DNA of 24,510 nucleotides, from positions 1-24,510 of IMG/VR virus record IMGVR_UViG_3300004770_000109; one strand, 5' to 3'. This stretch comes from a virus. Below, piece after piece: positions 1 through 20,376 of the stretch. The notes beneath the pieces were generated by a model. The model was given only the letters and a program-made list of their open reading frames with translations. It ran no database searches and was not told the DNA's origin. The translations under genes and the position numbers were made by a program. How positions within the stretch are numbered: position 1 is the first letter of the stretch; the number at the start of each line of letters is the position of its first letter.

Positions 1-2126
1 TCAGCCCATGACATACCGCCCAAAAATACACAGGCTTGCATAACTTGTTCTTGATAAATAATTACGCCATATGTTCTAGCGGTAAACTCTTGCATAAGCG
101 GGTGTGCATAAGTTACAATTTCTTCACCTTTTTTACGTCGGATATAAGATCCTCCAACCGTATTCATAGCACCTGGACGAACCAATGCATTAGAAGCAGC
201 AAGATCTTCAAATGTACTAACACCCATTTTCATAAGCAAATTTGTATAAGGTGTCGCTTCTGCTTGAAACACGCCTTTTGTAAAACCACTTGAAAGCATT
301 TCAAAAACTTTTTTATCATCAAGTTCAATTGACTTAAGGTTAACATCTTCTTTTTTAATATGCTTAATTGTTTTCAATGTATCATCAATAACAGACAGGG
401 TTTTAAGTCCAAGTACGTCAAGCTTAATTAGACCAAGGTCTGCAGTTTGTTCCATATCATAAGCAACTACTGGTATGCGACCAGATACCGAATCATCTGG
501 ATCTTTGCGAGTTTCAATTGGAACATATTGACTAATGTCATCTTTTGCAACTACTACGCCAGCAGCATGCATTCCATTTCCACGAATCTTGCCACGTAAC
601 ATGGATGCATATTTAGTTACCTCTGGATATTTTTTTCTGAATTCTTCTGTACTTGGGGAAGATTCATATTCTTCAAATGTCTCAACACCCTTAAGTGCTT
701 TATTAACTTCACCAAGTGGGATAAGGAACGCTCTAGCAACATCACGAATAACTCCTTTATCTTTAAAATATTGATATGTAGAAATAGAAGCAACATGCTT
801 AAATTTCTTACGCAAATACTCTTTAACTTCTCCACGACGGCGATCCATAAAATCTGTATCAATATCGGGAAAGTCATTACGTTCTGGATTAATAAATCTA
901 AAAAATAGCAAATCAAATTTAATTGGGTCTACTTCTGTAATACCCATTAAATAACAAACTAAACTTCCAGCAGCGGATCCTCTGCCTGGTCCAACCAAGA
1001 TTTCATTTTCTTTCGCCCAATTAACCATGTCACCAACAACAAGGAAATAACTAGCAAAATTTTTATCTGAGATAACTTTGAGTTCTTCTTGGAGTCTTTC
1101 TTTATATGTCTCATTTTCTAAGCCCTTATCTACTAGAGACTTTTCACACATTTCTTTTAATGTTTTTAATGCATTCTTTTTTGGTACTGGAAGCAAATCA
1201 AGATTCTCATGAAACGTATAAGATTCAATCTTGTCTGCTATTTCTACTGATGACTTGTATATATCTTTTCTTGTAATACCCGCTTTTTCAAAATCCATAC
1301 TAATTTCAGAATAGGATTGAATATAAACGTTAATATCAGCGAAAGAAATAGGGCGATTGGGATAAAGATGATCAAAGCGGTCAAGAGTATTAGTGAATGC
1401 ACGACCACTGGCGTAGTCTGCCTCTTTGTTTTCGGAAGGCTTTGTTGAGAGGATGAGGAGGAGTTCTTCCAGATCCCTCTCTTCTTTCTTTGCAAAATGA
1501 CAATCGCCTGTTGCAACTGGTTTCACCCCAAACTTATCTGCTAAATTAAGCAGAGAGTTATTTAATTCTTTAGGGTTGTGTGCCTGTACTTCAATATAAA
1601 AATCATCACCAAAATTGTCTTTAAAAATATTTACAAGCTCTTCTGCCCTGTTTAATTCACCACGCTCAATAGCCTTAGAAATAAGACCATTCATACAGCC
1701 TGATACTACAATTATACCTTCTTTATATTCAAACAAGACATCCATATCAATTCTTGGTTTTCTATAATATCCTTCAGTCCAAGCAATCTGTGAAAGCTTT
1801 TGTAGATTCTTTAATCCTATATCGTTTTTAGCAAGCAAAATAATATGATTATAAACTGAAGTGTTATCGTCACGCTTTTTAACTTCCCGCTTATCAAACC
1901 TATCTGTTTCTGAAATATAAGCTTCAATGCCAAGTATTGGCTTGATTCCTAATTCTTTTGCAGCAATCTGCATATCTCTGTGGGAAGATAATGTTCCGTG
2001 ATCTGTAATTGAAAGAGATGTCTGACCTTGCTTTTTTGCAGCCTCCAAAAGCTCGTGAGGTGTATTTAAACCGTCCATGAGACTATAATGCGAGTGAACG
2101 TGAAGGTGGACAAAATTATTTTGCAT
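1..2126 (-). CDS. dnaE: DNA polymerase III alpha subunit, DnaE type (3' end beyond window)
   Basis: Replicative C-family DNA polymerase that would copy the phage genome. The minus-strand frame opens at ATG 2124-2126 and stays open to the window edge, giving 708 codons of a protein whose family is usually 1000-1200 residues. The N-terminal PHP domain is clear (HLHVHSHYS at residues 7-15, then ITDHGTL). The palm carries GPGRGSAAGS and PDIDTDF, so the metal-binding aspartates are D421 and D423; the third is D570 in KLDVLGLKT. This spacing matches E. coli DnaE (D401, D403, D555). A YGVIIYQEQVM motif lies near the cut end. The start overlaps the end of the upstream endonuclease gene by 11 nt, suggesting coupled translation. 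No frameshift or intein was seen in the visible part. Plus-strand open frames over this region are shadows. Confidence 0.96.
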   Translation of the reverse strand, partial: MQNNFVHLHVHSHYSLMDGLNTPHELLEAAKKQGQTSLSITDHGTLSSHRDMQIAAKELGIKPILGIEAYISETDRFDKREVKKRDDNTSVYNHIILLAKNDIGLKNLQKLSQIAWTEGYYRKPRIDMDVLFEYKEGIIVVSGCMNGLISKAIERGELNRAEELVNIFKDNFGDDFYIEVQAHNPKELNNSLLNLADKFGVKPVATGDCHFAKKEERDLEELLLILSTKPSENKEADYASGRAFTNTLDRFDHLYPNRPISFADINVYIQSYSEISMDFEKAGITRKDIYKSSVEIADKIESYTFHENLDLLPVPKKNALKTLKEMCEKSLVDKGLENETYKERLQEELKVISDKNFASYFLVVGDMVNWAKENEILVGPGRGSAAGSLVCYLMGITEVDPIKFDLLFFRFINPERNDFPDIDTDFMDRRRGEVKEYLRKKFKHVASISTYQYFKDKGVIRDVARAFLIPLGEVNKALKGVETFEEYESSPSTEEFRKKYPEVTKYASMLRGKIRGNGMHAAGVVVAKDDISQYVPIETRKDPDDSVSGRIPVVAYDMEQTADLGLIKLDVLGLKTLSVIDDTLKTIKHIKKEDVNLKSIELDDKKVFEMLSSGFTKGVFQAEATPYTNLLMKMGVSTFEDLAASNALVRPGAMNTVGGSYIRRKKGEEIVTYAHPLMQEFTARTYGVIIYQEQVMQACVFLGGMSWA

Positions 2127-2616
2127 TAGCTCTCATCTTTCTTTTTTGTTCTGCATGACATGTTTTACAAATTATATATCCATTTGGCCTAACATACCCA
2201 ACAACCGAATAATCGTGTCCTTTTGGACAATTTGTTTTTTTGCCCTTTGGCATTGGCCTATCTTTTTCTTTATATTGTTCTATGTTTTGTAATGCGTTTT
2301 TAACTTGCAAATATTTTTTACCAGTTAATTCTGATAATATTGCTTTTAATATATTTTCTGCATCATTTGATGATGCAGCATATTGATATATTTCAGATTC
2401 TCCACGATTATTTACATGTGGACCTTGAACAGAACCAACTTTAAATATTTTTTGAAATCTATCAAGAGGTGTTCTGTCTACATACTGAGTTATTTTTATA
2501 CTTATATATTTGTAATCTTCTTTATATTTTCTTTTAGCAGTAGCTATTCCAGCAAAACCTTCTCCTTGGAAAAATCCCGCTGCCCAACATAAATCTGATT
2601 TGTGTATTTTGTCCAT
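2116..2616 (-). CDS. LAGLIDADG-type homing endonuclease with C-terminal zinc finger
   Basis: Free-standing homing endonuclease, 166 aa. Residues 10-20 (CWAAGFFQGEG) form one LAGLIDADG-like helix with the acidic E19 expected of the active site. Single-motif members of this family act as homodimers on pseudo-palindromic DNA. The C-terminus has CPKGH (C130, H134) and CKTC (C150, C153), a short zinc-binding module often attached to phage homing nucleases. The gene sits between the SSB gene and dnaE, overlaps the dnaE start by 11 nt, and is not inside an intron that I can see. Its start ATG lies only 6 nt after a TATAAT box, so it may be translated from a leaderless mRNA. Nuclease class is fairly sure; target and activity are inferred. 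Confidence 0.85.
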   Translation of the reverse strand: MDKIHKSDLCWAAGFFQGEGFAGIATAKRKYKEDYKYISIKITQYVDRTPLDRFQKIFKVGSVQGPHVNNRGESEIYQYAASSNDAENILKAILSELTGKKYLQVKNALQNIEQYKEKDRPMPKGKKTNCPKGHDYSVVGYVRPNGYIICKTCHAEQKRKMRANAK

Positions 2617-6703: not shown

Positions 6704-7212
6704 TCTGGTTGCTTCCAAACTGGGACAAATTCCCCATCGTTGTTTTTAACATATAAAATATTTTCTTGTTTAATCATAGCCTCTAGTTCTGCTCTGCTTG
6801 GCATATTTCCTGGAGTAATCCCGCCATCAATTCTGGGTCTTCCCCTGTGAACTGTTTTAAAAAAATCATGCATTTCTCTAATATTATCTTCGCTCCAAAA
6901 ATATTTTCCTGGAGTTTTATTTCCGTTTAAAGAATAAACTCTTTGAGGAAATTTTAAATCACCTCTATACAAATGCATTTTAATTGTATCTTCATGTTTT
7001 CCAATTAATTGGACAACTTCTTTGATGGGGTAGGCGTGTTGTTTATTTTTATTGACATCTGCCAAACTATAAGCAACACGCTTACCCAACTGATAATCCC
7101 ATGCGACAATAAGGTCCTCTGCACGAGAGCGACGTAGAACTTTGTGCAACTTGCCGTTTAGATAGAAATACCGTAGGCGTGTTGTACTATTTCTTCCTGT
7201 CTTGCTACCCAT
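6697..7212 (-). CDS. Putative DNA-binding protein with HTH-like region
   Basis: A 171-aa basic protein. The middle (about residues 62-85: YPIKEVVQLIGKHEDTIK and on) reads like a MerR/excisionase-type helix-turn-helix, in which a domain chooses a position by helices and is followed by an aromatic wing (YFWSEDNIREMHDFF). The N-terminal half begins GSKTGRNSTTRLRYFYLNGK, strongly basic. It heads the replication operon, so it could regulate it or act at an origin. The call rests on residue pattern only. It starts within the end of the zinc-ribbon gene (55-nt overlap). Confidence 0.7.
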   Translation of the reverse strand: MGSKTGRNSTTRLRYFYLNGKLHKVLRRSRAEDLIVAWDYQLGKRVAYSLADVNKNKQHAYPIKEVVQLIGKHEDTIKMHLYRGDLKFPQRVYSLNGNKTPGKYFWSEDNIREMHDFFKTVHRGRPRIDGGITPGNMPSRAELEAMIKQENILYVKNNDGEFVPVWKQPEW

Positions 7213-8548: not shown

Positions 8549-8578
8549 ATTGTAGCGTATTGTATTAGTTTCTGTCAA
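8549..8578 (-). promoter_or_regulatory. Sigma70-type promoter of the metallophosphoesterase
   Basis: Minus-strand TTGACA (8573-8578), a perfect -35, is followed after 18 nt by TACAAT (8549-8554). Transcription would start near 8542 and the gene's ATG is at 8523, leaving a leader of about 18 nt that carries AAAGGA. The -35 overlaps the stop codon of the HNH gene. The architecture equals that of the promoter at 9758-9787. Confidence 0.78.
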
Positions 8579-8835
8579 GCAACATGTGCTTTATTATGCT
8601 CTATTCTTGAACATAAAAAAAGATTAATTAACCTATTATCCATCTTATTTTCATTGATATGATGAATGGTTTCCCAATCTTCTATAATTCTATTTAATTG
8701 TTTTTCTATTATAAGGCGGTGTTCATAATACCAACCTTTAAAATTTTTAGGATGTTCTGGTACTTTTACTAAAACATAACCTTCACGGCTTATTTTCCTA
8801 TCCCGCTTAGTCCAAGCTTTGATAGGTTCGTACAT
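8575..8835 (-). CDS. HNH homing endonuclease
   Basis: Free-standing HNH nuclease, 86 aa. The beta-beta-alpha metal site is visible: EHR (H39), IHHINENKMDNRLINL (H58, H59, then N67 and N71) and a final H80/H84. YVLVKVPEHP and WYYEHRLIIEK are typical of the HNH_3 family. The start overlaps the stop of the preceding gene by one base (TAATG), and the stop codon is inside the -35 of the next promoter, so the gene fits precisely between two functional units, as expected for a selfish insertion tolerated by the phage. The small size suggests a minimal nuclease with no extra DNA-binding domain. Confidence 0.9.
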   Translation of the reverse strand: MYEPIKAWTKRDRKISREGYVLVKVPEHPKNFKGWYYEHRLIIEKQLNRIIEDWETIHHINENKMDNRLINLFLCSRIEHNKAHVA

Positions 8836-9757: not shown

Positions 9758-9787
9758 ATTGTAGCAGCTAATTGTTTAAACTGTCAA
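9758..9787 (-). promoter_or_regulatory. Sigma70-type promoter ahead of the accessory genes
   Basis: Minus-strand TTGACA (9782-9787) and TACAAT (9758-9763) are separated by 18 nt, exactly as at 8549-8578. The -35 is inside the last codons of the fibre gene. Transcription from about 9751 gives a 17-nt leader to ATG 9734. It would express the 55-aa, 132-aa, 126-aa and HNH genes separately from the tail operon. Confidence 0.75.
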
Positions 9788-12700
9788 ATTTAGATTTAAG
9801 TATATCTATTTTATTAGACAATTCCTGAATTGTTTTTTCATGATCTTGAATTAACGATAACATACCAGGAATAATATATTTAGGATTCCAAGTTTCAGGT
9901 TGTCCATTTAATGTATCAACCGCAATAGGATAAATAGCTTGCATTTCTTCAGCAATAAAACCTGGTACTGATTTTGATAAACGAGCATCATCATTATCTA
10001 AATAATCTTTTTTATAGGTAAATGAACGAACAGGAATTTTTAATAAAGCAGAAGGATTAAGTCCAGAAATTGTTTTTATATCAACAATGTTTTCTTTATA
10101 TCGTTCAGATGATGAAGAATAGCGAGCAATATATCCGCTGCTAGAATTTATAAATAAATTTGGAGAGCTAGTTGTAGTAGAAGCGCCTGCAGTGCCAATT
10201 AAATATGTTGAACCTGTTACAGATAAACTACTTGAAACTTGTCCACTTGTATTAATTATAAAATTACTATTACCAAAAGTAGCACCACCAGCTATAGTTA
10301 AATCATTTGAGGCACCCGTGACTGTTTGAAAAGCTTTTGCCAAAATGCTTTTGGAAGTCCAAATAGAATAAACCGCACCTTGCGGACCACTATTAGTTGC
10401 ATATATCTCTACAGTATCTGCACTGTTTTGAAGACCCCAACTAGTAAGGGTGAATCCACCAATAGTTCCAGAAGTTGCTGATATATCACCAGTTAAATTT
10501 AAAGTTGATCCATCCCAACTTAATTTTTGTGTTGAACCGTTTCCAACTTTAAAATTATTTGAGTACCATTGATTGTTTGAATCTATGTTTACGGAGTTTG
10601 CAGTAATGCTTCCTGATATAACTGCGCTTGATGCATGTAATGTTCCATCTGCTGTTACATAGAAATTATTTGAAGTTGATCTTGCTCCTGAACTTCCCGC
10701 CCAAAATACAACATCTGAAGAACTATCTAAATTTGGAGTAGCAATACCAGAGCTATATGTTGAACTAGAGGCAGATATATATACATTAGATTGATCTAAC
10801 TTTAATGTTCCATGACCAGTTGTTTTAGATATACCAGCTGAATTAACACTCCACCCGCCAATATATGCAGCATTTGTTACAAACAAGCCTGTTGTTCCAT
10901 CAATTGTTGTAATTCCCTTTGTAGACGGGCTATTAAATATAAGACCTGAATTATTTAAGATAAATGATTGAACACCTGTAGCTACTGCTTGTGCAGATGT
11001 AGAAACTGAAGATATAGATGCAGTATTAGTATTTGTTGCAATTGTAAACGTATCTGTTGTAACTGAAGAAATTGTAAATATACCAGAATATTGTATTGGC
11101 AATATACCAGAAATTGCAACAACATCTCCAGCAACAAATGTATGTGAATATGCTGTATAGACCGCACCGCTACTTCCATTTGGTGTTACTGCATAAATAT
11201 TTTTAACTTTTAAATTGCTTGAATATAATGACCCACCCAGGGAAAGGTTTCCATTAATTGAACCACTGCTTGCTGTTACAGTTCCAGAAATTATTGCATT
11301 TGTTGCAGTTAAAGCTCCAGTTCCGTCTACTGTAAATGTATTGCCAGATGAAATAAGTATTGGAGTTATAACTCCATTTGATACAGATCCTATTCCAGTA
11401 CCAGTTACTGTAAATGTTGTTGGTGTTGGAACAGATTCAATAGCTTTATTTGTTATGTTATATCCTGATGTCATTCCAGTTATGCTAATTAATTGTCCTA
11501 CAACTAAGCCATGTGCTGAAGTAGTAGTATATGTCATAACCCCGCCAGTTGCAGTTGCGTTGACTCCAGTTATTGTTCCACTACCAACAATTGATATATT
11601 TTTTGCCAGTACGTTTCCAGTAGGGGTTACGCTAAAACTAGCATTGTCTGATGAATTGCCAGATGTGGTTGCTCCAGCCCAAAAAGAATATTTGCCTGTT
11701 GCTGATAAACCAACATAATTACTTGCAGATCCAAGTGTGTTTTGTATTTGTGTTGAGTTAATAGACCAGTCTGCAATTTTTGCATTTGTTGTTGAAAAAG
11801 TATAACCACCACTTCCAGCATTTGAAATTATTGATGTAGTTGGTGCGGCATTAGTTGTTGCTGATCCATCATATGCAAATATTCCAGAGTATGAATTATT
11901 TCCTGTATTGTAATATGAATCTACTCCTAGGAGTATTCTTGCTCCAGTTGATGCTGATGCTCCTACATAAATTGCTCCTGCCGTTCCACCTACTTGAACC
12001 GCAGAATTAATTAAAGATGTTGTAGGATTAATTGGTGTAAATAAACTGCTTCCTGTTGTAGATGGAAGAGAACGATTTCCAAATAAATCATAGTAAACTA
12101 CAACCAAGTATGTCGGAGCATAAAAAGTTGAATATATATTTGCTGGATTAGATCCTGAATAAAGCAAAGCATTTATTTTATATGTACCCGTAGCCCCACT
12201 ACCGCTAAAATTAGATGCGACAATAGATCCAGAGCTGTACGTTGACAAAGTTAATGTATATGTGGGACCACTACCAGAAACTGCAGAAACAAAAGTATTT
12301 GAAGGTATATTGCTTCCAGTAATTGTATAGCCTAAATATAAACTTGGAGAAATTGTTAATCCATCTTCATTTAAAAAATTAGTTAATGTTACAGTATTAG
12401 TTCCAGCAGCTCCTCCTGAAGAATAAGTTGCAGTCATGTAATCTGGAAAATTTGAAGATAATTCTGAAGTGGTCCATGTATAATATTGGCCATAAACTTC
12501 AAGATATGCTGCTGTTGTATTTGAAAAATCAGACGAAACTACAAATCCATTTACTGATGCACTTATTGATGGACTTGGGGTTATTGAAGTAATTGTTGAA
12601 TTTCTTGAAAATGAAGCAATAGATTTTCCACCACTTCTAATTCCTGAAGAATTTACAGATATTAATGTTCCAGATAATGTGGAATAATATGCTCCAAGTT

Positions 12701-14318
12701 GTGAATAAATGTTTGCGGAAGATATTGTAAATGATTGTGATGTGTTGCCAGTTCCGTCTAGATTTAAATAAAAATAACCACTAGAAGAACCAGATATAAG
12801 TTTTGCAATATAACTAATTCCAGAATACTGAGCTGTTCCTCCAGTTGCTGATCCAGTAGTAGTTCCACTCATTGAAAAAGATGTTGAAGAAATTACAGTA
12901 ATGAGTCCAGTTGCATTATAGCCAGATATTGACATGCCAGTTATTTTAATTTGATCTCCAGAGGCAAATCCATGAGGTGTGCTTCCAGAGCTATAAACCA
13001 TTGAATTGCCACTAGTGTTTGTGGCTGTTATTCCTGATATGTTATAAACAGTTAAACTTATATTTACATCATTTCCGCTTCCACTATTTGAAAATGAACC
13101 AGATACAGAATTTACTTCATTTGGAGCATTAGTATTAATGGTAACTGGTGAATTTGGAGTTACTGAATATACTGAAGACCATCCATTTGTCCCGCCTAAA
13201 ACATCTACAAAACTTGCTGATACCCATCTTGTATTTAAATCTGAGGTAAGTACTGAAACTGGATTTACTGTGCCTTGATTAACAACATTAAAGTTTGTTG
13301 AATTCCATGATGTAGCTGAAATAGTTGATTCTGAAATCTGCATTGATTGAAAATTTGGATCTGAAAAAATAGTTGATGGATTTGCTGTAACATTATATCC
13401 ATTATTAATTGGAGTAACACTTAAAGAAGTTGGAATTGCAAGTGGGCTAACATAAGTTGCTCCTGTTATTGGAGAAGCAGCTAAGCCTAGGTTTCCAAAT
13501 GTGTCTTGTGCAACAACAGAAATGCTTGTAAAAACAGTTTGAGGAACTCCAAATATAGATTTATTTAATGTTGGAGTTAAAACATATGATTGTGATGGGC
13601 TTGATGTATTTGCTTTTACAAGTACTGTTTTTGTATTACCTCCCGCCGTAAGAGATAAAATAAAAGTTTGTGTGTTTTGATTTGAATAATTTCCAGCTGA
13701 GATTGCTGTTGTATCAAATGTCCAAGATATTGTTAAATTTGTTGAAGAATTCCAATTACTTGCTAGACTTGAAACTGCCCCTGGTTTTAATATTTGAGAT
13801 CCTACTAAAGCTCCAGCAATATCTGAACCTTTTGCAGACCATGAACCATCTGAATACCAATAATTATATGCATTTATATATATGCCATCTTTTCCAGTAT
13901 TATTAACATTGGGTCCAATTTGGACTGTACCTGCTGTTACTGTTCCCGCAAAATATGCTTTTCCTGTTGCAGAATCAATATAAAATTGTTTTGTTCCATT
14001 TGCAAATCCAGCAAGTCCTGTACTATTTAATACAACTCCAGTTCCGCTAACTGATCCATTAATTAAATCAACTTGTCCAATATCGGCTGGAAAATCTCCT
14101 GCAAATAAAGATCCACCACTTAATGATATATCTGTACCATAATTTTTTGTTTGAAAATTACCACCACTTGCTGAAACTGCTGGTGTTGAAATTGCTAACG
14201 CTGGTGAGTAAGGAGATGTATGTAGTTTTCCAGATGGGTCTGTGTACGTTGCAAACACCATAATTGTATAATTTTCATTTGGCGTTAATCCTTCAACTGG
14301 TAAACTTTCGGTTGCCAT
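9768..14318 (-). CDS. Tail fibre with C-terminal S74 autoprocessing domain
   Basis: 1516-aa virion protein, likely a trimeric receptor-binding fibre. Residues 1-45 look like the second half of an Fn3 domain (GLTPNENYTIMVFATYTD and SPYSPALAIST) without a first half. Residues about 50-1300 are Ser/Thr/Gly/Asn-rich beta repeats. They include three copies of a module with the pattern HGF-GD-IxITGM-YN-TT (about 424-498, 909-988 and 1038-1114) and repeated WSxNS...FWAG...VTxxG units (about 846-916 and 1149-1243). The C-terminal intramolecular chaperone is of the S74 family: S1403, R1406 and K1408 give the S-x-x-R-x-K dyad motif, followed by GFIAEEM and a helical end. It would trim itself after trimer folding. 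ATG 14318 is preceded by AGGA. Confidence 0.9.
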   Translation of the reverse strand: MATESLPVEGLTPNENYTIMVFATYTDPSGKLHTSPYSPALAISTPAVSASGGNFQTKNYGTDISLSGGSLFAGDFPADIGQVDLINGSVSGTGVVLNSTGLAGFANGTKQFYIDSATGKAYFAGTVTAGTVQIGPNVNNTGKDGIYINAYNYWYSDGSWSAKGSDIAGALVGSQILKPGAVSSLASNWNSSTNLTISWTFDTTAISAGNYSNQNTQTFILSLTAGGNTKTVLVKANTSSPSQSYVLTPTLNKSIFGVPQTVFTSISVVAQDTFGNLGLAASPITGATYVSPLAIPTSLSVTPINNGYNVTANPSTIFSDPNFQSMQISESTISATSWNSTNFNVVNQGTVNPVSVLTSDLNTRWVSASFVDVLGGTNGWSSVYSVTPNSPVTINTNAPNEVNSVSGSFSNSGSGNDVNISLTVYNISGITATNTSGNSMVYSSGSTPHGFASGDQIKITGMSISGYNATGLITVISSTSFSMSGTTTGSATGGTAQYSGISYIAKLISGSSSGYFYLNLDGTGNTSQSFTISSANIYSQLGAYYSTLSGTLISVNSSGIRSGGKSIASFSRNSTITSITPSPSISASVNGFVVSSDFSNTTAAYLEVYGQYYTWTTSELSSNFPDYMTATYSSGGAAGTNTVTLTNFLNEDGLTISPSLYLGYTITGSNIPSNTFVSAVSGSGPTYTLTLSTYSSGSIVASNFSGSGATGTYKINALLYSGSNPANIYSTFYAPTYLVVVYYDLFGNRSLPSTTGSSLFTPINPTTSLINSAVQVGGTAGAIYVGASASTGARILLGVDSYYNTGNNSYSGIFAYDGSATTNAAPTTSIISNAGSGGYTFSTTNAKIADWSINSTQIQNTLGSASNYVGLSATGKYSFWAGATTSGNSSDNASFSVTPTGNVLAKNISIVGSGTITGVNATATGGVMTYTTTSAHGLVVGQLISITGMTSGYNITNKAIESVPTPTTFTVTGTGIGSVSNGVITPILISSGNTFTVDGTGALTATNAIISGTVTASSGSINGNLSLGGSLYSSNLKVKNIYAVTPNGSSGAVYTAYSHTFVAGDVVAISGILPIQYSGIFTISSVTTDTFTIATNTNTASISSVSTSAQAVATGVQSFILNNSGLIFNSPSTKGITTIDGTTGLFVTNAAYIGGWSVNSAGISKTTGHGTLKLDQSNVYISASSSTYSSGIATPNLDSSSDVVFWAGSSGARSTSNNFYVTADGTLHASSAVISGSITANSVNIDSNNQWYSNNFKVGNGSTQKLSWDGSTLNLTGDISATSGTIGGFTLTSWGLQNSADTVEIYATNSGPQGAVYSIWTSKSILAKAFQTVTGASNDLTIAGGATFGNSNFIINTSGQVSSSLSVTGSTYLIGTAGASTTTSSPNLFINSSSGYIARYSSSSERYKENIVDIKTISGLNPSALLKIPVRSFTYKKDYLDNDDARLSKSVPGFIAEEMQAIYPIAVDTLNGQPETWNPKYIIPGMLSLIQDHEKTIQELSNKIDILKSKFDSLNN
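10975..13045 (-). repeat. Three divergent copies of an about 75-residue beta module in the fibre gene
   Basis: Protein-level repeat units lie at about 12825-13045 (HGFASGDQIKITGMSISGYN), 11355-11590 (HGLVVGQLISITGMTSGYN) and 10975-11205 (HTFVAGDVVAISGILPIQYS). Each is followed by a strand rich in S/T ending in FSMSG, FTVTG or FTIAT. Boundaries are estimated by eye. Copies are too diverged at DNA level to be recent duplications. Confidence 0.65.
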
Positions 14319-14324
14319 TTATTC

Positions 14325-15263
14325 CTACAACAACTCTACATAATATTCTACATCCAAAGGGATGTTTGGATTTTTAGGAATTGGTGTTGATAAAACTGAT
14401 TTACTGACTATTGATTCTTCTGTTGAAATTTCATTTGCGCTTACAACTTTTATTGCATCAAGCGTAAGAGATGCACTTGAATCAGTTGCAACTTGAATTT
14501 GAGTTATTGCGCTAAAATTTATAACTGAAGTATAGTTGCTGCTGGATGTATTTTGATCAAAAATTTGTGATAAAACTGAATAACCAGTGTTATTTGTTGT
14601 GGTAAACAATATGTTTTGATTTTTTCCTGAAACATCAGTTAGGGTAACAGTAACTATACCCGCAGATGTATTAAAAGCTAATAATTGAAGTGAATCAACA
14701 TTTGTATAATTTGTAAAGCCTATTGATAAATTAGAATTTAAATATGTTGTGCTTGAAGGAATATTAATTGAATTTGAACCAATTCTTGGAGAATTATATC
14801 CTTGAGGAATAAAACTATTTGTAGTTACTGAGCCTGATGTTGCATTCCAATACGTTAAGTTTGAAAAATCTGACAATATAAAATTATTTCTTGTTGAAGT
14901 TGAAAAACCAGTACTTGTTACTGCATATAATCCAACCTCATAAATATTAGCATATAGATCAGTTGGAAATGTTGCTCTTACAACTATTAAATCTGGATCA
15001 ATGGTTGTTGCTGATATAAAGCTTTTTAGTGTTACTGGTTGCCTGGAAGTTTCAAAATTTAATTGTGTATCTGAAATTGCTGGAGAACCGCCCGATATAT
15101 TTGTTGGCATTGCACCTATTGCCATATCTGCTGCCCAATTTTGTCTTGAGCCAGACAAGTACTCTAAAATCATCTTACGACCATTAGTTGTAATAATGTT
15201 TTTTGATCTTCCAATTTCTAATCCGTTTTGTTTAAATACGTATGTACCTTTAAATTGTGACAT
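14325..15263 (-). CDS. Minor structural (tail-associated) protein
   Basis: 312 aa, probably a virion component. The N-terminal third (GLEIGRSKNIITTNGRKMIL, then LRxx/ATFPTDLYANIYEVGLYA) resembles the start of phage tail appendage proteins in which a conserved beta domain attaches to the tail. The remainder (residues 120-310) is a Ser/Thr/Asn-rich beta region with a jelly-roll-like pattern. No catalytic motif is visible. Its start overlaps the stop region of the upstream Fn3 gene by 14 nt, and it ends 6 nt before the fibre gene, so it belongs to the same operon and very likely the same structure. Confidence 0.78.
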   Translation of the reverse strand: MSQFKGTYVFKQNGLEIGRSKNIITTNGRKMILEYLSGSRQNWAADMAIGAMPTNISGGSPAISDTQLNFETSRQPVTLKSFISATTIDPDLIVVRATFPTDLYANIYEVGLYAVTSTGFSTSTRNNFILSDFSNLTYWNATSGSVTTNSFIPQGYNSPRIGSNSINIPSSTTYLNSNLSIGFTNYTNVDSLQLLAFNTSAGIVTVTLTDVSGKNQNILFTTTNNTGYSVLSQIFDQNTSSSNYTSVINFSAITQIQVATDSSASLTLDAIKVVSANEISTEESIVSKSVLSTPIPKNPNIPLDVEYYVELL

Positions 15264-16140
15264 TATATGCTACCCCCGTTGAAGATCCATTTGCATAATT
15301 TACTTGAACAGATATGTTATATGTGCCAGTAAATGGTAATCCTGTTGCTGATGTTAAAGTAAATGAATATAATCCATAATTTAATGAACCAACTGCGTAA
15401 GAACTATTGCTACTGCTACCGCCTGCAGAAGGAACCACATAAGAATGTGTATCAACAGCAAAAGGTTTTCCTGGTATATCCCATCCTTTTACTGTTACAG
15501 TATAATGTACTGCATTTGGCAAAGCTTTCCATTGAATTGCAAAAAATGATGATGTATGATTAATTGTTGTAATTGTTCCAACTGGGTTTAAAGTTCCTTG
15601 ACCACCGCCACTTGACCCTCCGCTTGATCCGCCACCAGTTGTTCCGCCAGTTGATCCGCCACCAGAACTTCCGCCACCAGCAGGTGGGGGAGTACTTTTC
15701 ATATAATTAACATGATATGTATAAGAACCATCTCCAGGGTCGCCTTTTGAACGCTCAAAAGTTATTGTGATATTTTCAAATATTCCTGTATCTGTTGAAA
15801 CATAAGTAATGTCTGAAGGATTCCATACTGGTTTTCCTGGAACAGCAAGATCATTTAAAGCATTAGGAAAATCAGTTAAAGATTCATCATCACTTAACAG
15901 CATTCCACTTGAGCTTCCAGGTGCACTTAAATTATCTGAAGTATTAATATTTTGTTGTTTTAAATATAAAGCAAAACTTGCATCGTCTAAGACAACAATT
16001 TGTCCTGGATGACTATTTATATATTGCGGATTATTTCTAGGGTCGTGTTGAGATATATAAATAACATTTCTTTTTTTAGTGGATAAGGCAAGGGAGCCTT
16101 TGGCTTGGCTTTTTGTGCTTCTATTTTGCTGGATTGTCAT
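15250..16140 (-). CDS. Fn3-containing tail protein with Gly/Ser linker
   Basis: 296-aa virion protein. After a basic N-terminal segment (residues 1-30), residues about 98-152 look like the first half of an Fn3 domain (PGKPVWNPSDITYVST, ITITFERSKGD, YTYHVNYMKS). The domain then stops and a low-complexity linker PPP plus about 30 residues of Gly, Ser and Thr follows (to about 182). A complete second Fn3 domain occupies residues 184-296 (FFAIQWKALPNAVHYTVTVK to YNISVQVNYANGSSTGV). Fn3 domains in phage tails bind surface carbohydrate or polymer. ATG 16140 has a strong GGGGAGG site upstream and a TATAAT box at 16157-16162. Confidence 0.8.
   Translation of the reverse strand: MTIQQNRSTKSQAKGSLALSTKKRNVIYISQHDPRNNPQYINSHPGQIVVLDDASFALYLKQQNINTSDNLSAPGSSSGMLLSDDESLTDFPNALNDLAVPGKPVWNPSDITYVSTDTGIFENITITFERSKGDPGDGSYTYHVNYMKSTPPPAGGGSSGGGSTGGTTGGGSSGGSSGGGQGTLNPVGTITTINHTSSFFAIQWKALPNAVHYTVTVKGWDIPGKPFAVDTHSYVVPSAGGSSSNSSYAVGSLNYGLYSFTLTSATGLPFTGTYNISVQVNYANGSSTGVAYNVTI
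15595..15692 (-). repeat. Gly/Ser/Thr low-complexity linker repeats
   Basis: About 30 codons made almost only of GGN, TCN/AGY and ACN with short units such as GGGSSGG and GGST, producing an internally repetitive DNA segment (plus strand shows ccgccacc, ccgccagt and similar units). It separates the half Fn3 domain from the complete Fn3 domain in the 296-aa protein. Replication slippage could vary its length. Confidence 0.7.
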
Positions 16141-16179: not shown

Positions 16180-19100
16180 TTAACCTATTTGATTTAAAAC
16201 AAGCGTAGTTGTTAATCCTGTATCAAAATTTTGAGTAATTCCTTGAACAAAATATTTTTGATTTACTATATTTTTTAAACCATAGTTAATTACAACAATA
16301 TCTCCAATTTCATACAAAGGGTTGCCATATATAGATATTGTCGTGTCTCTTGTAAATCCATCTAGAGCCCTGTATATTGATCTTAATATTGCTGAGGCTG
16401 TATTTTCATCCTGAACCCAACTTGTAGTAATGTCTACAGTTTCATTAATATTTTCAATATCAAAAACTTTTTCCATTACTACGTCATCTCCGAGCGTTAT
16501 TAATGAATCTGTAATTAAACTAAAATCTACATTAATTTTGTTTACAGAGTCTGGTGATTTTTTTAACCAAATTTGACATGGTGAATTATTAATAATTGCA
16601 AATCTACTTCTAAATCCAGAATGATAAATTGGAGAATATGTTAATGAATTTTTATCAACAGGTATTGAAGGCAAACCAATATTTTTATTTGCTAAACTTG
16701 ACACCTGTACACTTTTTATTTTACCATTTGTAGCTAATTTTGCTGCTGGGGAATTAACTGGAATAGTTGTTGGTGCAGCGCCATCAAGATAATAGTACCA
16801 ATCATAAGATAGTTTTAATGGGTAGGCATCAAGCGATGGAGCTTGTGAATCTTTTATATCATAATAGTTTATTCCTATAATTGAAGGTTTTGATTGCACC
16901 ATATAATTAATTTCAAATATTTTTTTATTACTTGATAGTTTTTCAGCAAACCAAGGCAGTTGATAATGATAAAAATAATCAGCAGTTAATAAAGCACTTT
17001 GAGTTGCATATACTTCTGAAAATTCAATTGATGCTATTGGAGAAGAAGATGATAATAAAGCTGAAGCAAATATTCCAAATTTTCCAGAAGTGTCTAAGGT
17101 TATATTAGATTTTGTAGATAAAAATATTTTTTTCTTATTTATATAAACTTCAAAAATATTTTTTGTTTCAGTACTTTTTACAAATTTAAGATTAATATAT
17201 TCACCAAAAGTTTCTAGAGCTGAGAAAGGGGGGTATGCTTTTGCTTGTCCAGATATAGCTTCTGTTATGTCTAAACCTAGCGAATTTCCGTTATTGTATG
17301 AAAGGAGTGTTGGCCCAACAGCAGAGTTTTGTCTTACGTCTAAATAATATTTTGTTACATTATTTAAAGTTTGTTGATTAATCATAACAAAAATACTTGC
17401 ATTTTGAGATGAATCATGTAAAACTAAACCATAAGAACTATCTGGATAACGCATTGGAACCCAACTATTATCGTCAGCTCTAGTATTTATTAAAATTTTT
17501 GTTGAAAAAGTATTATAATTATTCGTACTTCCATTTATAGAATAAGGGTCTAACGCTGTTATTTTTGAAGTCCAGCCAGAATTTCCAGATAAAAGTATAT
17601 TTCCATTTGTACTAATTGTTGGTGTATACGATGCATTAGAAATATCAAACCTTTGTTGTATATCATATGTTGTTGACATAACTATATGTGATGAAATTGG
17701 TGTATTAAATTGACCTCTATCTACATTTGTTATTCTTCCTGTTGCTTGTACTTGAAATGGTGAATTACCCGCCAAGGTACTTATTTCTGCAAACTTTGAA
17801 GAAAACTCGGCAGAGTTAGCAATAGATCTTGTAGTATTAATTGAAGGACCAACATAGCTAAATTCTTTGTATTTAAAACTTACTATTTCATTTTCAATAA
17901 TTCCGTATCCACTATGATCTATTCCATAAGATCTAAATATTGGTTGCTCTGTGCTTGCAGCTGTTGCTTCGTATGTTGGTACAGTAAAATAGGTGTCTGA
18001 CAAACTCATGCTTTTTGCAAGAGTATTATAAGTTGTTGCGTCATCAATAGTTGAATCCCAAATAGCATTTGTTTTATTTGTAAATGTTGGAGCACTGTCT
18101 ACATATAAATTATTATTTAAAAGCCTTGTATCAGATGCAATGGTTTTTTCAATTTGAGGTGTTTTATAAGTAAAATTAATTTTGCCCACTTTAGTCTTTG
18201 TTGATTCTTGATATGTATCTTGAACTATATTTGGATAAACGGTTAAGTTGTTTGTATAACCATTTGAAGTAGAAATTGATAAGGGAGCAGATGAATCATG
18301 AAGCTGCATATTTATAAGATTATTTTTATCAAAAATGCCATCAAAATTTATAAATTTCATAACACCATACACATCTATGTATGCTGCAATTTGATAAACT
18401 TCAAATATTTCTCTAAGAACATCATAAACTTTTTGTTGAGTTCCGTCAACATAAAAATATCTAATTTTTATTGGCGCTGTACTTTTAATGTTGGATCCAT
18501 CTACTAGGGCTGTTGTTGATGATGTTACTCTTTTAAGAGAATCATAATCATAATCTGTAAAACCAGCAAAGTCTAAGATATTGCTTATAAGCCTAAATGC
18601 ATCTTCAGTTTGTGCAACATAATCTGTTGGCTGTGCTAGTTGCAGATACTTTGTTATATCATATGCTGTAATGACAGTTTTTTCTATATCTTTAACATCC
18701 CAGGTATCAACATAAAATACTCCGCCATGTATTACTCTATCTGACGAAGTTGTTCCTGTTATACTATCTATAATTCTATAATTAACATAACATTTAACGT
18801 AATTTCTAAACAAACCTTTAAGGACAGAACTTGAAGAATTGTTTGAAAATAAGCTTAAAACTTGATTACTTACGGTTAATGGAACGTTAGATAATGTAAT
18901 TGTTGCCATGTTTGCTGATATGGCGGAAATTGGAAGTGGATTTTGTTTATTATCAAGTTCTGCTTGAGTATTTACAGACATTGTATAATAAGAAACATCA
19001 ATCTCTAATCTAGGAGATATCTCCACAACCTGCATCCTTAAAAATTCTGATGATTTAGATGTACGAGAAGTTGATCCATCTAAATTTTCATTAACAGAGC

Positions 19101-20376
19101 TGGAGTATGAATTTGAAATAGTTGAGGAATTTTGTGTTACTTGTATAGAGTTAATGGCTATTGTAGCATTTGTTGTTCCACCTTTAGACCCGCCAAATTT
19201 TATATCTCCATTAAAGTTAAATGATGGCGTTCCTGGCATTGTAGTTGTATCTACAGTCCCCGTCCATGTGCCCCCATTTAAACCAGAGACCCATGAGCCA
19301 TTAGATTGATAATAAAGTATACATGTTCCAGAGCTATCAATATCTGATCCAGAGTATGTTTGACTATAGGAATATGTAGAAGAATATCCTCCAGCAAATG
19401 TATTTGTTTCTCCTGCTAAATTTACTGTAAAAGACGATGGTTTTGAATAAGCCAAATTAAACTTAATAACAATTTTATTGACATTTAAAGTTTGATCATA
19501 AACTCCAGATATTGTGGGGGATGAAGAATCAGCAACAAAATACTTATATTGTGACCATTCAGATAAAGAACCATTCTTATAAACTGGATTAAAAGAATTT
19601 GTACCTATTAATGTTGGATGATAGGATACTGGACTTACTGGCATTATTTGATTGTTCCAGCTCCCGCCTAAGTTAGTACTGATTTGTCTAAAGTTTGTTG
19701 GCAGTTGACATAAAGAGTTTCCTGATGGAACAAAACTTTCGCCTGGTCGGAAAGCTTTAAATGGAGAGGATGTTGTCCATAAATTTCCATAACGATATTC
19801 AAAATCACTTGTTTGATGCATTTCTAATTGATCAATTAAAACACCATAAGATGTTGCTCCATCTGTAGCGCCATGATGCAAAGAAAGGGTTGGGTTAGAA
19901 TAAGCAGTTCCTAGAGGTTGGGGGCTTAAATAAATTTCAAATTTAGTCCAGCTAACACTATTTATTTTTTGTGAAGATGAGTGTGCTCTATGATAATCAA
20001 TGTATAACAAGGCTGATAGATTGACTTCGGCATCTGTGTTTACTTTAGCCCAAAATGTTACTTTATATGTATTTGTTGTAGAAGAAAGAGGAATTGTAAT
20101 AGATGAATCACCTGATCCATTTGTTGTATTAAATGAATAACAAGATCTTGTTGTTTGTAATGTGTCTGCTAAAAATACACTGGTTATCCGACCACTTGCA
20201 ACTGTTGTTGGAGCATTGCTCCATGTACCAGAAATTAATGTGGGGGTTGCTGAGCCATTTATAGAAACATATGGAGCATAAAATAAATTATAATTCCACT
20301 CTAAAGATGTTTGTGGGAGCACATAATGAGAATTACCAGAAGCAAAGTACTGTTGAACATTTGAGGAGCCTAGCAT
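16180..20376 (-). CDS. Tail hub/baseplate protein with embedded lectin-like domains
   Basis: 1398 aa, likely the tail-tip hub (analogue of the Tal or minor tail hub proteins) that joins the tube to the fibres. Residues about 60-195 resemble a carbohydrate-binding jelly roll (WSNAPTTVASGR...VTFWAKVN...GVLIDQLEMHQ). Residues about 447-720 look like a hub core (RLEIDVSYYTMSV, VLREIFEVYQIAAYIDVYG). A concanavalin/laminin-G-like segment occupies about 907-1122. The hub fold appears to resume at the end (SIYGNPLYEIGDIVVINYG, then QGITQNFDTGLTTTLVLNQ). Domain calls are by eye. ATG 20376 overlaps the stop of the Dit-like gene by one base. Confidence 0.8.
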   Translation of the reverse strand: MLGSSNVQQYFASGNSHYVLPQTSLEWNYNLFYAPYVSINGSATPTLISGTWSNAPTTVASGRITSVFLADTLQTTRSCYSFNTTNGSGDSSITIPLSSTTNTYKVTFWAKVNTDAEVNLSALLYIDYHRAHSSSQKINSVSWTKFEIYLSPQPLGTAYSNPTLSLHHGATDGATSYGVLIDQLEMHQTSDFEYRYGNLWTTSSPFKAFRPGESFVPSGNSLCQLPTNFRQISTNLGGSWNNQIMPVSPVSYHPTLIGTNSFNPVYKNGSLSEWSQYKYFVADSSSPTISGVYDQTLNVNKIVIKFNLAYSKPSSFTVNLAGETNTFAGGYSSTYSYSQTYSGSDIDSSGTCILYYQSNGSWVSGLNGGTWTGTVDTTTMPGTPSFNFNGDIKFGGSKGGTTNATIAINSIQVTQNSSTISNSYSSSVNENLDGSTSRTSKSSEFLRMQVVEISPRLEIDVSYYTMSVNTQAELDNKQNPLPISAISANMATITLSNVPLTVSNQVLSLFSNNSSSSVLKGLFRNYVKCYVNYRIIDSITGTTSSDRVIHGGVFYVDTWDVKDIEKTVITAYDITKYLQLAQPTDYVAQTEDAFRLISNILDFAGFTDYDYDSLKRVTSSTTALVDGSNIKSTAPIKIRYFYVDGTQQKVYDVLREIFEVYQIAAYIDVYGVMKFINFDGIFDKNNLINMQLHDSSAPLSISTSNGYTNNLTVYPNIVQDTYQESTKTKVGKINFTYKTPQIEKTIASDTRLLNNNLYVDSAPTFTNKTNAIWDSTIDDATTYNTLAKSMSLSDTYFTVPTYEATAASTEQPIFRSYGIDHSGYGIIENEIVSFKYKEFSYVGPSINTTRSIANSAEFSSKFAEISTLAGNSPFQVQATGRITNVDRGQFNTPISSHIVMSTTYDIQQRFDISNASYTPTISTNGNILLSGNSGWTSKITALDPYSINGSTNNYNTFSTKILINTRADDNSWVPMRYPDSSYGLVLHDSSQNASIFVMINQQTLNNVTKYYLDVRQNSAVGPTLLSYNNGNSLGLDITEAISGQAKAYPPFSALETFGEYINLKFVKSTETKNIFEVYINKKKIFLSTKSNITLDTSGKFGIFASALLSSSSPIASIEFSEVYATQSALLTADYFYHYQLPWFAEKLSSNKKIFEINYMVQSKPSIIGINYYDIKDSQAPSLDAYPLKLSYDWYYYLDGAAPTTIPVNSPAAKLATNGKIKSVQVSSLANKNIGLPSIPVDKNSLTYSPIYHSGFRSRFAIINNSPCQIWLKKSPDSVNKINVDFSLITDSLITLGDDVVMEKVFDIENINETVDITTSWVQDENTASAILRSIYRALDGFTRDTTISIYGNPLYEIGDIVVINYGLKNIVNQKYFVQGITQNFDTGLTTTLVLNQIG

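Follow-up and report, generated by a model that had tools for sequence, protein, structure and literature searches.

Folds of the immunoglobulin (Ig) type can be completed by a second polypeptide. In the donor-strand complementation and exchange of chaperone-usher pili, another polypeptide supplies the segment that completes an Ig-type fold, and this completion drives assembly. An engineered fibronectin type III (Fn3) domain cut into two fragments reportedly reassembles with high affinity. At the tail tip of phage lambda, a separate protein, gpI, joins an Fn3 of the central fibre gpJ by beta-sheet augmentation, and what corresponds to T5 pb3 is distributed in lambda among several genes, with K as an additional intervening gene (PMC10721106). 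Here, we describe an Fn3 that is divided between two tail genes in a single metagenomic virus record (IMG/VR record IMGVR_UViG_3300004770_000109), the whole stretch of 24,510 bases being referred to as the window. The first half of the domain (half 1) lies in a 296-amino-acid (aa) protein, U; the second half (half 2) forms the extreme N-terminus of a 1516-aa tail fibre, D; and a minor tail protein of 312 aa, M, is encoded between them (Table 1). We consider it likely that one Fn3 is completed in trans by two virion proteins, U and D, and that this domain is the joint for the virion-proximal end of the fibre.

The original prediction, made from the window alone, had proposed one Fn3 split over two tail genes, with half 1 ending at YHVNYMKS ahead of a Pro/Gly/Ser linker, the fibre starting at half 2, and about 1.37 kb between the halves. 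Profile matches and the relatives described below bore out the split, the end of half 1 and the linker were confirmed in U, and the gap between the halves measured 1,375 bases. Alone, half 2 of the window matched the Pfam fn3 profile only at positions 49–72 of 84 (15.9 bits), and the matches for half 2 of three relatives fell within positions 47–79. Half 1 alone gave no match to Pfam fn3. Joining the halves raised the fn3 score from 15.9 to 19.1 bits in the window (profile 27–72) and from 18.3 to 24.4 bits in the related locus L081 (profile 10–76 of 84). Joined halves scored 18.3–24.4 bits in nine of ten sequences, the tenth giving no match, as compared with 15.9–19.4 bits for half 2 alone, and in none of the ten sequences did they reach the curated PF00041 cut-off of 25 bits. 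A profile of 19 joined sequences matched solved Fn3 domains (286 distinct sequences at E≤1, best 2.6e-12) and spanned some of them fully, such as TEN-D3 at 2–89 of 93. An upstream extension of D is not possible, as an in-frame TAA is the codon before its ATG, and an AGGA motif lies just upstream. The two genes thus carry complementary halves of one domain, neither of which is complete alone.

The same split, at the same position of the fold and with the same gene order, was found in 56 fetched loci from freshwater phages, Streptomyces phages (Stanwilliamsviridae), and Rhodococcus phages (Trinavirus); because it recurs in 56 loci, it lies far beyond chance. Relatives were sought via the 1398-aa minor tail protein encoded upstream of U (36 loci), M (53 viral loci and one genome contig), and the fibre N-terminus (32 loci), and loci with enough sequence showed the order 1398-aa-like protein, U, M, and D. 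In an annotated phage collection, 132 records (127 Streptomyces and 5 Rhodococcus) matched both the 1398-aa-like protein and the M of Streptomyces phage Jay2Jay, and 13 were examined in detail. The split was present in the Streptomyces phages Jay2Jay, Francob, Coruscant, Comrade, BillNye, Wakanda, Yaboi, and others, and in the Rhodococcus phages Trina, Francesca, and NiceHouse. In Francob, the gene before M ends with GATEYDVRITKS at its stop codon and the fibre starts with MSRILLRDLEPGRLYHIQARATNG; in Trina, U ends with NVEYEIRITQ and the fibre starts with MAEIQLQGLQPGQQCFVQVRTK. The halves align column by column in all lineages. Profiles of the halves, built from 33 of the 56 loci, detected half 1 in U in 54 loci and half 2 in D in 55. 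The 23 held-out loci, many of them close relatives of those included, were clear for both halves in 21 cases; L148 was weak for both and L088 for half 1. The window's genes were found identical in another IMG/VR contig (locus L052), where the profile matches were 8e-15 for half 1, with L052 included in that profile, and 3e-19 for half 2. The tail module is also carried by L105 (CAINGU010000031.1), a contig binned as a metagenome-assembled genome of an uncultured cyanobacterium and probably phage DNA.

The split occurs in three architectural forms. In the bare form (Streptomyces and Rhodococcus phages, L096, L099, L106, L144, and others), U ends at half 1 and D begins at half 2, as in the pair with U ending in EYDVRITKS and D starting with MSRILLRDLEPG. 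In the barest cases, U stops 1–4 residues past strand C and D starts a few residues ahead of strand E; therefore, nothing else in either gene completes the halves. In the U-extended form (the window's clade and the L077-like clade), an Fn3 follows half 1, with or without a Ser/Gly linker. In the both-extended form (the L061-like clade), D also carries a complete Fn3 and a linker ahead of bare half 2. An Fn3 half upstream of the fibre start in the same gene, named by the original prediction as evidence that would speak against the split, was seen in no relative. On a tree of 53 M sequences, the root of which is arbitrary, two changes, each on a supported branch, explain all three forms: an Fn3 was added once to U and once to D, with the bare split on one side. 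The bare split is likely the ancestor, because the bare form has the most diverse lineages, and, judged from these sequences, the split predates the divergence of the Streptomyces, Rhodococcus, and freshwater phages. The added domains sit at the two cut ends and alter neither half, as expected if the cut lies in an exposed loop of a real domain.

Structural predictions used unchanged translations of natural read-throughs in two lineages, L078 and L099. In L078, U, M, and D share one frame, and stops were read as Gly. In L099, D is in the frame of U, and the intervening M region, being out of frame, serves as a 306-residue nonsense tether (residues 57–362); the alignment rows for the two halves were unpaired, so that no pairing information was supplied. 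AlphaFold2 (AF2) modelled L099 with predicted local distance difference test (pLDDT) values of 92–93 in the core of half 2 and 76–89 in half 1. All 50 matches listed by VIA for this model were Fn3-type domains (Z 9.3–10.3, 76–93 residues, root mean square deviation mostly about 2–3 Å), and the alignments covered a model range of about 5..406, placing about 82 residues onto a single Fn3. Since an alignment of this length to one 90-residue Fn3 spans the tether, both halves are placed in one fold, and the L099 pair is predicted to form a seven-strand Fn3 beta-sandwich. The original prediction had also named as counterevidence a structure in which each half is complete or part of another fold by itself; the L099 model instead docks the halves together. 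In the AF2 model of L078, half 2 was ordered (pLDDT 76–91) between disordered flanks, and the counterpart of the second Fn3 of U folded as a full Fn3 (residues 61–153, VIA Z up to 12.9). Foldseek and VIA matches for L078 were filled by this complete domain and have no bearing on the docking of the halves.

We also compared sequence distances among 49 phages. Distances of half 1 and half 2 correlated after the M phylogeny was removed (partial r 0.41, 0 of 1,000 permutations). The corresponding values were 0.28 for half 1 and the adjoining part of U, 0.19 for half 2 and the adjoining part of D, and 0.02–0.18 for either half and parts of M. Given the short segments, this correlation is suggestive.

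Fibres are normally bound to the virion by their N-terminus, and the C-terminal S74 domain of D fits such a polarity. If one Fn3 is completed in trans, U would most likely be a small adaptor with its N-terminal region anchored on the tail. Strands A-B-C would come from U, at or near its C-terminus, and strands E-F-G from the N-terminus of D, with one U per fibre chain. Because neither piece alone can form the sandwich, formation of the domain would couple attachment of the fibre to U and hence to the tail. U and M, and likewise M and D, have 4-base overlaps in most Streptomyces phages examined in detail, which suggests translational coupling; tight coupling of U, M, and D would allow the two halves to be synthesised next to each other from a single mRNA, and the joint may assemble co-translationally. 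Later lineages would have extended U with a linker and an Fn3 behind half 1, and D with an Fn3 and a linker ahead of half 2. The part of D behind half 2 differs widely among relatives, and D sizes of 294–2331 aa are consistent with a constant socket for exchangeable fibres. Somewhat less firmly, we think it probable that a naturally split Fn3, with one half from an adaptor and the other from a fibre, is an obligate tail-fibre joint in a widespread phage group, its genes being translated adjacently.

Several points weigh against completion in trans. The contact between U and D is a predicted one, and U, annotated as ‘hypothetical’, is a putative virion protein. AF2 was given both halves on the same chain and might complete whatever Fn3 half it is offered; the modelled pairs were the matched halves of L078 and L099, and docking was deduced from the range and length of the VIA alignments. 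The distance correlation rests on short segments of about 45 residues.

The alternative that survives best, although we regard it as unlikely, is that the halves self-associate or pair with other tail proteins and share no Fn3: for example, half 2 of D would form a trimer at the fibre base, and half 1 of U would bind the 1398-aa protein or the C-terminal strand of M. The S74 chaperone domain of D suggests a trimeric fibre, and M ends with the strand-like PLDVEYYVELL directly before D. However, the halves complement each other exactly in every lineage and are docked together in the prediction, whereas the last strand of M is conserved along with the collar-like fold of M itself and is out of the frame of D in Streptomyces phages.

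The original prediction had left two readings open, of which completion in trans is favoured. The other, in which an insert of about 1.37 kb broke up an ancestral single gene, leaving the halves as remnants with no common function, is very improbable and fails as a recent event. The order of half 1, insert, and half 2 is indeed that of an interrupted domain, but remnants would decay, whereas both halves are conserved over lineages in which M proteins are only about 25–30% identical. Moreover, the linker and second Fn3 within the 1.37 kb of the window are later additions on the M tree, and therefore no recent interruption of one gene took place. The uninterrupted single-gene Fn3 for which the original prediction had proposed a search among relatives was sought and not found. 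In tblastn searches with the joined domain, 0 of the 132 matching phage records had one place covering 80% of it, and no one-gene fusion was detected; a Rhodococcus joined-domain query likewise yielded no unbroken single-gene copy. Matches extending upstream of D in its frame were considered as fusions and rejected, as most cross in-frame stops and none covers 80% of the joined domain. A variant in which the interruption is ancient and dates from the origin of the system is compatible with these data.

A covalent union of U and D by read-through, frameshifting, bypassing, or protein trans-splicing is more improbable still. The genes for U and M and for M and D overlap or sit within a few bases of each other, but M (about 900 bases) would need to be included or skipped, the frame relations vary between lineages, and Pfam gave no intein or Hint match, and hence no sign of a split intein, in U, M, or D. 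An assembly or gene-calling artefact, conceivable for a single metagenomic record, is refuted by the identical genes of L052 and by complete genomes of isolated phages, which show the same architecture.

Table 1. Tail genes of the window and segments of U and D that relate to the split Fn3.
Feature	Position	Strand	Description	Basis
1398-aa minor tail protein	16180..20376	-	Upstream of U	phrog_10359; context kept in all sufficiently long relatives
U, 296 aa	15250..16140	-	Anchor-like N-terminal region (1–100), Fn3 half 1, Gly/Ser linker, complete Fn3-like domain	Open reading frame and alignment with 22 relatives
Fn3 half 1	15694..15840	-	U residues 101–149, PGKPVWN...YHVNYMKS; strands A-B-C	Homologous to half 1 of other curated relatives
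Pro/Gly/Ser linker	15595..15693	-	U residues 150–182 (33 residues)	Sequence; missing where U ends at half 1
Second, complete Fn3-like domain	15253..15594	-	U residues 183–296	Alignment; later addition, gained once on the M tree
M, 312-aa minor tail protein	14325..15263	-	Between both Fn3 halves	phrog_9983 tail protein
D, 1516-aa tail fibre	9768..14318	-	C-terminal S74 chaperone domain	Open reading frame
Fn3 half 2	14169..14318	-	D residues 1–50, extreme N-terminus; strands E-F-G	Pfam fn3 profile, second half only

The tail genes of the window follow the order tape measure, 188-aa protein, 1398-aa protein, U, M, and D on the minus strand. Homologues of the 1398-aa protein in the close relatives L015, L016, L018, and L044 have 1805–1846 aa, with a C-terminal extension of about 400 residues. 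M belongs to phrog_9983 (E 5.1e-30, M residues 23–311, profile 1–271 of 273) and had 123 Streptomyces phage matches; the sequence search gave no solved relative of M. In L061 (about 6996–7015), and also in L059 and L060, M seemingly lacks the usual start: ATG-TCA-CAA of the window is ATT-TCA-CAA there (within GGAAATTTCACAATTTAAAGG), overlapping the end of U, and an ATT start is possible. In D, Peptidase_S74 was found at residues 1403–1467 (23.7 bits, over the cut-off), and residues 440–488 (window 12855–13001) weakly matched the E1_FCCH domain of ubiquitin-activating enzyme (24.6 bits, below the cut-off). The D homologues of L052 to L106 have a similar N-terminus, often with one or more further large genes after them, which suggests exchange of fibre parts behind a constant start. 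Two endonuclease genes were also detected. A LAGLIDADG endonuclease open reading frame (PF00961, 26.5 bits; window 2116–2616) shares 11 bases with the start of the phage gene for DNA polymerase III alpha (3–2126). A small HNH endonuclease gene (PF13392, 30.5 bits; window 8575–8835) lies just downstream of the tail module, and Jay2Jay and Francob have an HNH gene adjoining a metallophosphoesterase at about the same place.

Among described loci, the minor tail operon of Jay2Jay (gp66–gp69; Stanwilliamsviridae) shares with the window the gene order and the split Fn3. It differs in that U stops at half 1, with no linker or second Fn3, and in its fibre, which has about 2,000 aa and carries Fn3 and carbohydrate-binding domains; the operon's annotation makes no mention of a split Fn3. 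A literature search turned up no report of phage tails with a split Fn3, which is weak evidence of novelty, and the literature found offered no account of the way in which Stanwilliamsviridae, Trinavirus, and related freshwater phages attach long fibres to their tails. An Fn3 completed in trans would offer a concrete answer that is easy to test, in phages already available from teaching and research collections. It would be a natural heteromeric Fn3 made from two genes and a modular socket for very different fibres, and the natural pair is a potential protein tool. For annotators, it would mean that a ‘truncated’ N-terminal domain can be real.

A natural Fn3 whose halves come from two different structural genes is not found among the nearest precedents. 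In the pili, a nearly complete Ig fold receives a single strand, whereas here about half an Fn3 comes from each of two structural proteins. In lambda, FNIII-A of gpJ is a domain of gpJ itself that is augmented by gpI, whereas here both U and D are incomplete and the cut runs through the fold (PMC10721106). The engineered domain reportedly likewise consists of one Fn3 in two fragments but was derived from human fibronectin (Dutta et al. 2005, Protein Sci 14:2838; ref. 50 of PMC11666773), whereas the present one is natural, conserved, and encoded by two phage genes. If U and D do complete one Fn3 in trans, fold complementation of the kind seen in pili and in engineered Fn3 extends to a natural joint between fibre and tail.
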